From a virus, in IMG/VR virus record IMGVR_UViG_3300013101_000136, positions 1 to 20,042 of that record: a stretch of 20,042 nucleotides of DNA; one strand, written 5' to 3'. A program made the position numbers and the translations under genes. Below the pieces are notes generated by a model. The model was given only the letters and a program-made list of their open reading frames with translations. It was not told the DNA's origin and searched no databases. The stretch's first letter is position 1. The number at the start of each line of letters is the position of its first letter. Shown here one piece after another: positions 13,003-20,042 of the stretch.

Positions 13003-13488
13003 TTACTGACCACGCATTCTTTTATTAAGACGGCTTAAACGCTTAGATTGTGTCTTACGCTTGGTGAATAGAGTCTTACGTACTCTCTGTCCTTTCTTCA
13101 TGCGGGCAGATTTCTTACCCTGACGTACTTTCTTGGGGTCCTTTCTGATACCACACTTTTCAGGTGATGATACCATACGACCAGCCTTTGGGCCAGTAGT
13201 ACAACGGTATTGTCGTAGGAACTTATCACCATATCGACGGAACTGACGCTGTACAGCTTCAGAGATATTATCAAATTCATCACCATCTGTAAGCTCTGCA
13301 ATGTCATTTAGAATTGCGTTTACTTCCTTAGTATGATCTTCATTAAGATCACCACTAGCCAACAGTTCACGAATCTCTTGAATATCTTCGAGCATCGTTT
13401 CCAATTCTAGCACAGCCTCGTCATAGTCTTCGATGACTAATGCCGATTCGCTGATAACAGCCTCACCTAATAATCTTCCTAATTTCAT
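13003..13488 (-). CDS. Candidate prohead core/internal protein with basic tail (161 aa)
   Basis: The protein has two unlike halves. Residues 14-80 are acidic and helical. Residues 83-161 are extremely basic (Lys/Arg-rich, including KKVRQGKKSARMKKGQRVRK), with two cysteines in RCTTGPKAGRMVSSPEKCG (95-113) that could form a small loop or metal site. LLGE-AV near the N-terminus (cut after E9) and NISE-AV (after E77) both match the T4 prohead protease gp21 rule (L/I-x-E before A, G or S). Cleavage there would release the basic part, as expected for a packaged DNA-binding protein. It starts with TAATG coupled to the 441 aa gene, with GAGGAC before it. No named family recognised; role inferred from motifs. 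Confidence 0.75.
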   Translation of the reverse strand: MKLGRLLGEAVISESALVIEDYDEAVLELETMLEDIQEIRELLASGDLNEDHTKEVNAILNDIAELTDGDEFDNISEAVQRQFRRYGDKFLRQYRCTTGPKAGRMVSSPEKCGIRKDPKKVRQGKKSARMKKGQRVRKTLFTKRKTQSKRLSRLNKRMRGQ

Positions 13489-16476: not shown

Positions 16477-17070
16477 TTAAAGGATAAAGCCACTTCCAGT
16501 TGAACCAGCACCACCAGTCGCTTTACCACCAACATTGTCAGGGTTAACGTTCTGTCGTGCGTGGTCGAATCGGAACGTAACTGTTGCTTTAACAGTTTCT
16601 GACGTGGTGTAATCTACATCACCCCAGTCAACGTTCTGAATAAACGCACCTTCAAGTATCCAAGTTTCAACTACAGCTTGGTTACCGTCGAGTAGGTCCA
16701 TTTTAACCGCGAATTTATAATCTTGACCAGCAGCAGCAGATGACAAACGCGGGGATGCGTTTAGTCCAATGATATTCTGTTGTAGTTCAAGTTGTTCCTG
16801 AATTGCCGCTGTAACACCACCATCTAAGTCATCTTCGAAGGTGACGTTAACTGGCTCAAAGATGTGCTTTGCAGCAACATATGCCTTTGAGTTGTAACGG
16901 TCAAGTACAACTTCTTCGAAAGTAAGTTTAGGACGGTCTGCACTGATAGCGTTCAGACGTAAAGGCTCTTCATCACCAGCCATGTTCTGGAAGGTAATAG
17001 CCCACTTGTGCTTTAGGCGAGGTTGAGCGATGCCGCCACCGTCAACACCCAAATCTGTAATTAATGCCAT
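16477..17070 (-). CDS. 19: Tail tube protein (gp19-like)
   Basis: Builds the inner tube of the contractile tail, on which the sheath assembles. Typical features are the start of the folded part RLKHKWAITFQNM (18-30), RPKLTFEEVVLDRYNSKAYV (46-65), FEPVNVTFEDDLDGGV (70-85), and the C-terminal strands VETWILEGAFIQNVDWGDVDY and ETVKATVTFRFDHA. At 197 aa it is somewhat longer than T4 gp19 (163 aa), ending in a Gly-rich tail (GGKATGGAGSTGSGFIL). GGAG precedes the ATG by 9 bases and a perfect late box lies 31 bases upstream. It has its own terminator, so it is a single-gene unit, fitting a protein needed in over 100 copies per virion. The sheath gene would normally be its direct neighbour; here the 247 aa plus-strand gene sits between them. 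Confidence 0.92.
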   Translation of the reverse strand: MALITDLGVDGGGIAQPRLKHKWAITFQNMAGDEEPLRLNAISADRPKLTFEEVVLDRYNSKAYVAAKHIFEPVNVTFEDDLDGGVTAAIQEQLELQQNIIGLNASPRLSSAAAGQDYKFAVKMDLLDGNQAVVETWILEGAFIQNVDWGDVDYTTSETVKATVTFRFDHARQNVNPDNVGGKATGGAGSTGSGFIL

Positions 17071-17101: not shown

Positions 17102-17109
17102 TATTTATA
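17102..17109 (-). promoter_or_regulatory. Perfect T4-type late promoter box (TATAAATA) for gene 19
   Basis: The minus strand reads TATAAATA 31 bases before the gp19 ATG. It stands back-to-back with the plus-strand box at 17150-17157, 40 bases away. Confidence 0.82.
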
Positions 17110-17149: not shown

Positions 17150-17157
17150 CATAAATA
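17150..17157 (+). promoter_or_regulatory. T4-type late promoter box (CATAAATA) for the 247 aa gene
   Basis: CATAAATA on the plus strand, 24 bases before the ATG at 17182, with GGAG at 17171-17174 between. Box, ribosome-binding site and start are all in the positions expected for a late gene. Confidence 0.7.
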
Positions 17158-17181
17158 CCTGTAATATCACGGAGTTAATTA

Positions 17182-17925
17182 ATGCGTCAATTCAAAACAT
17201 ATTTATCAGAAATGGTACTAACTGAGAAGGGAGCCGAGCTAAATGCCGACCTCATCTACCAGAAGATTATCGACACACTGGATCATGCTCATATAGACTT
17301 TGACGAGGACCGCATACAGTTCCACGTGGGGCGTATTACAAAGAATAGTGCAGTTGATGTGAGGATTGTTATTAGGCCCGCTGGTGAGGACGAGGTTCGC
17401 TTAGGTAAGAATACTAAGGGTGAATACACTATCGTAATAGACGTTGCTGGTAACATGCCGTCAAGGGATGACATCGACGATTTCATTTCTAATGATAGAA
17501 TGAGAGCGGGTGAAGTCAAACAAGCGTTAGCACAATATATTCGTGATCACAGCACAGAGCAGGATGCCCCGCTAGTTAAGACCAAATACGAAGACGATGC
17601 CCTTGATAATGATCAAGGAAATTTTGAACGTCAGTATGAATCTTTAACTCGTAAGATTAAAGAGCGTATGGCCGAGTATACTGGTGTTTGTGGTGAACTT
17701 GATGGTGAACTGGACACTGAGGACATGAGCCAAAGAGAATCTGCTAAGATGGCACGTGCACAACTTACCAAGGAGTATTTTGGTGATAATATAGATGAAT
17801 TCAAGAAGATTGCTGGTGGTATGCTTAAGGCTGGTTACATGCAAGGTCTTACTAAAGAGAATAAAGAGAAGTTATTGAATCGGTTGGGTAGCTATTACGA
17901 TCAGAAGATCAAACCTACTATGTAG
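17182..17925 (+). CDS. Candidate capsid-targeted internal protein (247 aa)
   Basis: No enzyme or structural family recognised. The first ten residues, MRQFKTYLSE, closely resemble the T4 capsid-targeting sequence of internal proteins and Alt (MKTYQEFIAE), after which gp21 protease cuts. The L-S-E triplet sits at the same place, although the next residue is Met rather than the usual Ala. The rest has an alpha/beta N-terminal part (IQFHVGRITKNSAVDVRIVI and YTIVIDVAGNMPS), an acidic helical middle (about 105-195) and a helical C-terminus rich in Lys. It is soluble with no membrane segment. It lies on the strand opposite to sheath and tube genes, with its own late promoter, GGAG and bidirectional terminator. 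Such a unit looks like a self-contained insertion (moron) whose product could be packaged and injected. This role is inference. Confidence 0.85.
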   Translation: MRQFKTYLSEMVLTEKGAELNADLIYQKIIDTLDHAHIDFDEDRIQFHVGRITKNSAVDVRIVIRPAGEDEVRLGKNTKGEYTIVIDVAGNMPSRDDIDDFISNDRMRAGEVKQALAQYIRDHSTEQDAPLVKTKYEDDALDNDQGNFERQYESLTRKIKERMAEYTGVCGELDGELDTEDMSQRESAKMARAQLTKEYFGDNIDEFKKIAGGMLKAGYMQGLTKENKEKLLNRLGSYYDQKIKPTM

Positions 17926-17952
17926 GTCTAACTCACCTATTATGTAGGTAAT

Positions 17953-17980
17953 AAAAAAGGGAGCCGAAGCTCCCTTTTTT
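17953..17980. terminator. Bidirectional Rho-independent terminator between convergent genes
   Basis: A 12-base stem, AAAAAAGGGAGC (17953-17964) with GCTCCCTTTTTT (17969-17980), loop CGAA, which reads UUCG on the minus strand. U-tracts exist in both directions. It ends the 247 aa gene (stop 17925) and gene 18 (stop 17995). The core GGAGCCGAAGCTCC is the same as in the terminator at 4262-4290. Confidence 0.92.
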
Positions 17981-17994
17981 GTGCGTCAATTTCC

Positions 17995-20042
17995 TTATCG
18001 GATAACTGCGTCTGTTCTTACTAGTCGTAGATCAACCAAGATGAACTCAACAGCCTTGATAGGCTTGATAGCAATATCTACTATCAGTTCACTGCGGTCA
18101 ACCGATGCTGGTGGATTGTTTGATTCATCACATTGTGTTGCGAAGTCAAACAAGCCACGACGACCAACTAGCTCAGAAAGGAAACTATCCGTAGATGCTT
18201 TCACGTTCTGCCGAGTTAGCGTGTCATTCGGTTCGAACAAGAAGTCGAATAGACGACGACGTAGTGTTCTTCGGATGAATCCGGTTAGCCGAGCAACATT
18301 TACACGATCAAGTGCAGATGATGATGACTGGGTAGTGTTCTGAGACATAATCAAGATGCCACGGTTGATCAAGTTTGCAAAATAGTTAATGTCTATTGCA
18401 AACAAGGTGTCCTGTGTACCCTTGTCGATATCGTTCTCTACCCATAAAGTTGCTGTACCAAGAGTTCCTGATACGTAACCAATAGACGTTAGGTGTGATG
18501 ATGCACCGCGAGTTGGACCCGCTGGTGCGTACCACAGTTCTGTCTGTTGATCATTGAATGCGTATACCCGCAGAGCAGAAGATGCAGCAGAGACCATAAT
18601 CGTAGCACCATCTGTATTAGATGCTAGTCCATGTGGGTAATAATATGCAACGTATGTGTTGAATACTTTATTGTCTTCTGCCCATTCTATCATACCGTTT
18701 GGACCTGTAGGTGGACGGTTAAAAGGTGTATCTGCAATTACAAATACCTCATTATCCAAATCCTGTGACAGAGTTGCAAGTTCATCTGTAGCTTCCCAGT
18801 ATCCCGGTGCAAGTGTAAGGTTGTAATCAAAACGATCAGAACGGAAGATGCTGTTAGGGTTGTTAATGGTGCCCTGAATTTGAGTAACAATGGCAGCACG
18901 ACGTGCTGCATCGTTTGCACCAAGAGATGTACCATTCTTAAACTCTACGGTATTATCAAAATCAGTAGATGATGCTAAAAGCACACCTTCTGATTCACTT
19001 GATGTGAACTCGGTTGCAACAATGCTACCTGCTGTCCAGTTGTCGATGACTGCATCAAGACCGTCGTATGTACCAACGATAGATGTAAAGTCATCATTAT
19101 AAATGTCTAGTGGTGAAGGACCCTGACCTTGTACAGGTGTTTCAAACTTATCAAAAAGCAGAGTGTTAGCAAATAGTGCTGTTGTGCCGCTTGTGCCGTC
19201 TGAAACTACTTCTACTGATGACGTTGCACCAGCTAAACCTGAAGTGATTCGAATGCATCCTGAGATGATTTCAACTACCGTTCCAGCGTCACCTGTCTGG
19301 GCTTGGATTGCAGCTTCCATTTCAGAAATAAGTTCTGAGAATGTCTGTGCAGCCTGACCTAGTATAGTAACGTTAAATGTGTTTACACCACCGTTGTCTG
19401 AAACTGTAATTTCAAAGCCGTATGCTGTTGTATCGTTGTTTAGACCAGTGTTGTCTAGACCTGTGATGTTACCACCCGTAGAGTCGTAACAAATGTCTTG
19501 ATAACCAGCAATGTCGATTGTGTGGTCCTGCAAGAAGTCTTGCTGGAATTGTGTTGAACTAAATGAATAGCACATGAACACATCAAGCATCGCTTCATCA
19601 ATTAAAGTCTTAAGTTCAGATGATGTCACTGTTTGCTTATAGCTCGGAGACGCGGGAACAAGTCCGTTCGCATCATTAGATTCCTGAATAAAGTCAGCAA
19701 CTAATGCATTTAGGTTGTCACCCGCAAGTCCTACCTTGGATGTCCAAAGTGACTTTGTACTTGCGTATGTGTCATCAAGATTAACGTTTGCACGTACAAC
19801 ATATGCACGTTCGCCAACTTCTAGGAATCTGTAAAGAGCGTCTAGGCCGTATTCGTTACGGGCATCACCATGTTGTGCACCACCTGCTGCATCAACTAGA
19901 AAGTTTGGCGTACCATAAAGTTCGGCTGCTTGTGAGCGACCTGTAACAGTACGGATAACGTTATTCTCAAAAGTACCCAATGCAGGCGTAACACCGTCTG
20001 CTTGTGTTTTTTCATCTGCCGTGGCAATGAATATTAGGGGAA
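17995..20042 (-). CDS. 18: Tail sheath protein (gp18-like), N-terminus outside window
   Basis: Contractile sheath subunit. The frame stays open to the right edge. Codons for PLIFIATADEKTQADGVTPA precede the TTG at 19980, and this is normal sheath sequence, so the true start lies beyond the window and about 681 residues are visible. Typical blocks are the N-terminal segment from GTFENNVIRTVTGRSQAAEL to LYGTPNFLVD, EYGLDALYRFLEVGERAYVV with RANVNLDD, and the C-terminal domain with FIRRTLRRRLFDFLFEPND, CDESNNPPASVDRSELIVDI and KPIKAVEFILVDLRL. The C-terminal part matches the handshake region of T4 gp18 (659 aa). A beta-rich segment at about 19158-19428 (YGFEITVSDNGGVNTFNV to TALFANTL) looks like an extra surface domain. 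It ends at the bidirectional terminator. Confidence 0.95.
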   Translation of the reverse strand, partial: PLIFIATADEKTQADGVTPALGTFENNVIRTVTGRSQAAELYGTPNFLVDAAGGAQHGDARNEYGLDALYRFLEVGERAYVVRANVNLDDTYASTKSLWTSKVGLAGDNLNALVADFIQESNDANGLVPASPSYKQTVTSSELKTLIDEAMLDVFMCYSFSSTQFQQDFLQDHTIDIAGYQDICYDSTGGNITGLDNTGLNNDTTAYGFEITVSDNGGVNTFNVTILGQAAQTFSELISEMEAAIQAQTGDAGTVVEIISGCIRITSGLAGATSSVEVVSDGTSGTTALFANTLLFDKFETPVQGQGPSPLDIYNDDFTSIVGTYDGLDAVIDNWTAGSIVATEFTSSESEGVLLASSTDFDNTVEFKNGTSLGANDAARRAAIVTQIQGTINNPNSIFRSDRFDYNLTLAPGYWEATDELATLSQDLDNEVFVIADTPFNRPPTGPNGMIEWAEDNKVFNTYVAYYYPHGLASNTDGATIMVSAASSALRVYAFNDQQTELWYAPAGPTRGASSHLTSIGYVSGTLGTATLWVENDIDKGTQDTLFAIDINYFANLINRGILIMSQNTTQSSSSALDRVNVARLTGFIRRTLRRRLFDFLFEPNDTLTRQNVKASTDSFLSELVGRRGLFDFATQCDESNNPPASVDRSELIVDIAIKPIKAVEFILVDLRLVRTDAVIR

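Follow-up and report, generated by a model that had tools for sequence, protein, structure and literature searches.

The window analysed here is a 20,042-base virus record, which gene order and similarity group with the phages XacN1, RAS14 and CM1. RAS14 and CM1 are Stenotrophomonas phages, and XacN1 is a Xanthomonas phage that PMC5852040 describes as a distant relative of the Rak2-like phages. The XacN1 run matching the window is annotated as carbamoyl transferase, glycosyltransferase, NUDIX, RNase H, DNA polymerase and head completion protein, and then continues through a structural (tube) protein to ORF352, the orthologue of an open reading frame (ORF) at 17182–17925 on the plus strand of the window. 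This ORF encodes 247 amino acids, and we confirmed its coordinates, strand and length as given in a first-pass annotation of the DNA. Homologues were found in XacN1, RAS14, CM1 and many IMG/VR contigs, and the frame is kept by homologues in independent genomes at 30–51% identity, indicating that the ORF is a real gene. On the basis of these homologues, their alignment, a homology to HExxH proteins and a structure match, we propose that its product is a head-targeted pseudo-metallopeptidase.

The gene is surrounded by tail genes, not head genes. The tail tube gene (16477–17070, minus strand; PHROG 4542, 1e-41) diverges from it, and the tail sheath gene (17995–20042, minus strand; PHROG 10581, 1.2e-121), cut by the end of the window, converges on it. 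The TTG at 19980 is probably a wrong sheath start, and the 708-aa homologue in L004 begins further upstream. Upstream of the 247-aa ORF lie a T4-type late box, CATAAATA (17150–17157, plus strand), and a ribosome-binding site, GGAG (17171–17174, plus strand), both of which the first-pass annotation had attributed to the gene. The late box NATAAATA was found 24–37 nt upstream of the gene in all 10 sequences checked, and GGAG or a close variant occupies the same place in the homologues; late expression of the gene is likely. The divergent tube gene has a late box of its own, TATAAATA (17102–17109, minus strand). Downstream, a symmetric terminator of A-run, hairpin and T-run was located at 17951–17982 (−19.5 kcal/mol, z −6.09), and the same element occurs in L004 and L010. 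A generic terminator scan did not include this hairpin among its listed terminators. Given its symmetry and its place between two genes that converge, it is probably the terminator of both, and the earlier view of a terminator belonging to this gene alone gives way to a strong element held in common with the sheath gene.

We found the gene conserved, and divergent from the tail-tube gene, throughout the assessable XacN1/RAS14/CM1 jumbo-phage clade. This arrangement was seen at 15/15 assessable tube loci and also in XacN1 and RAS14 (L111 was left out of the assessable set, its upstream sequence being too short, and L106 shows the gene start only). The gene was first supposed to be absent from L119, which was ruled out by a diverged copy recognised among the L119 ORFs. 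Profile searches revealed no homologue in the Rak2-like phages PA5oct, Atu_ph07 or 121Q, though tube and sheath genes are there, and no paralogue or relocated copy. No relatives were found in the bacterial genomes searched, and no Pfam or PHROG family matched the protein better than chance. XacN1 ORF352, RAS14 WAX21621 and an unannotated CM1 gene are orthologues with the same place, strand, tag and fold (31–33% identity), annotated at most as predicted or hypothetical; they differ in having one residue fewer before the tag and no L/I-x-E at 13–15. The gene had been described as interrupting the sheath-tube (18–19) pair, and the gap between these two genes takes other insertions in related phages, such as a homing-endonuclease-like ORF between the sheath gene and the homologue in L119 (1568–3163), a Hef-like gene in PA5oct and ORF353–366 in XacN1.

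The first ten residues of the protein, MRQFKTYLSE (codons 1–10, 17182–17211, plus strand), resemble a capsid-targeting sequence, with L-x-E at 8–10. It has been documented that residues 4 and 7 of T4 IPIII serve capsid targeting, that residues 8 and 10 serve processing, and that T4 gp21 cleaves after L/I-x-E (PMC9026906). F4, Y7, L8 and E10 occupy exactly the positions critical in IPIII. We compared the tag over 14 lineages, aligning XacN1 and RAS14 manually; these two and L119 have a peptide shorter by one residue. Position 4 was F or L, position 7 was Y or F, and position 8 was I, L or V, each in 14/14 lineages, and E10 was kept in 12/14, being replaced by T in L010 and by K in L034. The T4-like N-terminus noticed in the first-pass annotation is thus conserved position by position. 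The Met at P1', remarked on there as unusual, is confined to the window gene and L008, and the other lineages mostly carry S, A, T, G, Q or K.

We also identified a second candidate cleavage triplet that had escaped the first-pass annotation, LTE at codons 13–15 (17218–17226, plus strand), at a break between helix 3–14 and helix 18–35. A second L/I-x-E at this place is present in 9/14 lineages, including both that lack E10, with K, Q, R or S at P1', and at least one L/I/V-x-E ends at residues 9–15 in all 14. From nine close homologues, E15 and not E10 appeared to be the conserved site, which was ruled out on adding L105, L117 and L119. Columns 11–21 form the most variable block of the alignment (mean entropy 1.91, vs 0.89 for columns 22–40), and the structure models have low confidence at the N-terminus (below 50 at residues 1–9 in one and at residues 4–15 in the other) and a helix break at 15–17. 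Alignment and models separate the N-terminal tag from the fold, and it resembles a signal that could be detached. T4 IPI, IPII, IPIII and Alt likewise have a ten-residue N-terminus with critical positions 4, 7, 8 and 10 and the same late promoter type, and the clade encodes a protease of the gp21 type. The window protein differs from them in having no sequence relation past the tag, a gene between tail genes and an extra L/I-x-E at 13–15.

The head protease was identified in XacN1 (ORF297; PHROG 207, 1e-57), with homologues in CM1 and the close contig G002; its presence is shown for the clade, and the window fragment does not span the protease region. The clade protease has a conserved N-terminal ITE, and the N-terminus of the major capsid protein in the clade also carries an L/I-x-E triplet. 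Within the window, a basic 161-aa protein (13003–13488, minus strand) has an N-terminal L/I-x-E (MKLGRLLGE) and a basic C-terminus, and in the homologues found the triplet ends at residues 8–10, making this product a candidate core, internal head or DNA-binding protein. The tag also takes a genome-specific form common to two unrelated genes, MRFTSYLIE and MRFVQYLIE in XacN1 and MSFKTFLIE and MSFVQFLIE in CM1.

Genome-wide counts, for which we used a looser pattern of CTS-like N-termini, were compared with shuffles (300 in XacN1, CM1 and SCTP-2). XacN1 contained 10 such N-termini against a shuffle mean of 3.6, and CM1 contained 13 against 5.1, with 0/300 shuffles reaching the count in either genome; they were associated with late boxes in both (Fisher p 2.6e-4 in XacN1, 1.8e-4 in CM1). 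SCTP-2 showed no clear excess (12 vs 7.0; 12/300 shuffles reach the count). The uncultured 484-kb phage LR756508 gave 34 matches vs 8.1 in shuffles, many of which may be paralogues. PA5oct, which has no homologue of the 247-aa protein, offered an independent test, since MS-detected proteins are flagged in its record. CTS-like N-termini were not enriched among the flagged proteins (3/93 vs 4/147), which makes the pattern weak evidence by itself and no predictor of virion association. The case for the tag rests on its position-specific conservation, not on the pattern alone. XacN1 ORF352 is not named in the text of PMC5852040, which covers XacN1 virion MS/MS.

Several other tagged proteins were observed in these genomes. 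In the region 177696–337234 of LR756508.1 (L067–L075, L055), more than 20 proteins of about 170–280 aa that start with M[KR][LF]K[DNE]LLxE or near variants lie in clusters, giving the impression of a large tagged-effector array. Many of them have a YRG or similar motif near residue 30–48, suggestive of ADP-ribosyltransferases, with no Pfam confirmation. In SCTP-2 (MF360958), a family of 225–329 aa with starts of MKINDLLxE or similar was seen at 209679–214398, 282007, 326749 and 333694, and one member has ALFRG and KPTD, motifs shared with ADP-ribosyltransferase-like proteins. CM1 carries two late-box genes with tag-like starts at 197604 (minus strand) and 108531 (plus strand), one having HEVQH and similarity to virion protein families and the other resembling KptA/ART. 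XacN1 ORF170 (81006–81653) has the tag-like start MKQVRLSQFLSEA and is kinase-like by eye, with no Pfam match.

We then examined the body of the protein. A profile of ten homologues weakly matched an SCTP-2 protein with HELTH and NTPAEYNA, and the relatives of that protein in LR756508 and IMG/VR keep, or nearly keep, HExxH and NxPxExNA. When 12 homologues and 10 HExxH relatives were aligned profile to profile with hhalign, the probability was 96.9 over 206 columns, covering residues 10–244. In a single-sequence ranking among 397 sampled proteins of comparable length, the HExxH relatives known at that stage, three in number and two of them picked without reference to the 247-aa family, came 1st, 2nd and 5th behind the true homologues. 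Independently, a Foldseek search with the first model matched a viral protein of 250 aa (E 1.7e-7, probability 1.00), which has the same length as the SCTP-2 protein and may be identical with it. Sequence and fold searches of the PDB gave no significant match, and weak metallopeptidase hits were discounted.

In the hhalign alignment, the HExxH of active relatives falls on QALAQ (codons 114–118, 17521–17535, plus strand), with both His replaced by Q114 and Q118 and the Glu by A115. NxPxExNAxx falls on NDQGNFERQY (codons 143–152, 17608–17637, plus strand), where the third zinc ligand, a Glu, is replaced by N147, and the framework positions N143 and Y152 do not vary. The zinc site (HExxH and downstream Glu) was absent in 12/12 aligned members and also in XacN1 and RAS14. 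On the sequence evidence, the 247-aa protein is very probably a zincin homologue that has no zinc site. Its elements follow the same order as the MPTase domains of phage polyvalent proteins (PMC5512222), namely an N-terminal helix, strands, a helix at the HExxH position and a following helix. The likeness extends to relatives that keep HExxH and NxPxExNA intact and to one relative fused to ART-PolyVal. The window protein differs from those domains in being stand-alone, in carrying a capsid-targeting-like tag and in having lost all three zinc ligands.

Most of the active HExxH relatives begin with L/I-x-E peptides. In L121 (1206–4432), an HExxH metallopeptidase and an ART-PolyVal domain (PF18760, 2.3e-7, above cut-off) occur in one ORF, with an upstream neighbour that has the tag-like start MSSLLTFKQYLKEV and a tube-like ORF (by eye) downstream. 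Since an internal start at MKTFKQFLMKE is possible in this ORF, the fusion may partly be two genes in one frame. The 247-aa protein itself is single-domain, not polyvalent, and the ART-PolyVal fusion is seen only in this relative. MPTase and ART domains have been argued to be delivered with phage DNA (PMC5512222). Taken with the tags of the relatives and the L121 fusion, this argument makes descent from a delivered protease, with catalysis lost in the clade, the simplest reading.

The explanation we favour, with a probability of roughly 0.58, is that the gene encodes a pseudo-metallopeptidase that is expressed late, targeted to the head, trimmed by a protease and probably ejected, and that acts by binding. 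The product would be a late-expressed internal protein of the head in XacN1-type jumbo phages. It would dock into the prohead core through its N-terminal 10 (or 15) residues, in the manner of the T4 capsid-targeting sequence. A gp21-type head protease would then cleave after L/I-x-E, at E10 or, where E10 is missing, at E15, leaving about 232–237 residues in the capsid. This mature part would have a zincin-type metallopeptidase fold minus all three zinc ligands, and because these ligands are lost, it would act by binding and not by cleavage through the zincin mechanism. The binding target would most likely be a host protein met after ejection with the DNA; alternatively, the protein may have a structural role inside the head. 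Packaging in the head is the better-founded part, which we judge probable, and ejection followed by binding in the host is put forward more tentatively. The loss of E10 in two lineages, the K, Q, R or S at P1' of the second triplet, the lack of a clear motif excess in SCTP-2, the PA5oct result, the PDB searches with no significant fold match and the placement among tail genes count against this explanation.

The same tag would be expected of a structural core protein that is targeted and trimmed but stays in the head, organising the core or the DNA, and never acts in the host. Such a role would fit the long C-terminal helices in the models and the conservation of the protein through its clade, unlike the T4 internal proteins, which are variable. 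However, metallopeptidase ancestry and the ART-PolyVal fusion of a relative point to effectors, and Alt and many T4 internal proteins are ejected (PMC9026906), so we regard a purely structural role as possible but rather unlikely. The position among tail genes also leaves room for a role in the tail: the product could be a clade-specific assembly factor or chaperone that acts on the tube and for that reason lies opposite the tube gene, with the tag as an amphipathic assembly helix. Its constant divergence from the tube gene and its clade-wide conservation are what a morphogenesis gene would show, and the first-pass annotation had named universal conservation as a tail factor as an outcome that would count against head packaging. 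The conservation was indeed found across the clade, but no homologue was detected in the other Rak2-like phages searched, which do have tube and sheath genes. In addition, the N-terminus obeys the T4 capsid-targeting rules in a genome-specific form common to an unrelated gene, and the family elsewhere is an HExxH peptidase, once fused to ART-PolyVal. We consider the tail-factor explanation unlikely.

That the likeness to the T4 tag arose by chance in an ordinary amphipathic N-terminal helix would agree with the shortness of L/I-x-E and with the PA5oct result, but positions 4, 7 and 8 hold in all 14 lineages at identities down to 30% while neighbouring residues vary, and the motif exceeds shuffles in XacN1 and CM1; chance is an improbable account. 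The first-pass annotation suggested a self-contained cassette with an anti-defence factor or host-takeover protein. Taken as a mobile, accessory element, such a cassette could draw on the opposite strand, the late box and ribosome-binding site of the gene, and the insertions in the sheath-tube gap of L119, PA5oct and XacN1. The gene nevertheless keeps one position in every assessable clade member and has diverged in place to 30% identity, its terminator hairpin is shared with the sheath gene, and no paralogue or relocated copy was found. Clade-wide conservation thus disfavours an optional anti-defence cassette, leaving a structural core role possible, and we hold the cassette to be very doubtful.

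If the gene product is the head-targeted pseudo-metallopeptidase we favour, it would be a delivered protease fold turned into a non-enzymatic factor and conserved through one clade. A broader and more speculative idea, which we think may well prove wrong, is that across this jumbo-phage lineage T4-style N-terminal tags serve as a common code by which a large set of effectors, among them ART-like proteins and metallopeptidases, is loaded for delivery by the virion, and that the XacN1-clade protein, carried by all members, is a delivered protease turned conserved dead binder, for example a decoy or inhibitor at the host target of the ancestral protease. The tag would offer a sequence rule for spotting head-loaded proteins of giant T4-related phages, whose proteins mostly lack known function. 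If confirmed, it would make candidate injected effectors of dozens of anonymous late genes, more than 20 of which belong to a single 484-kb phage.
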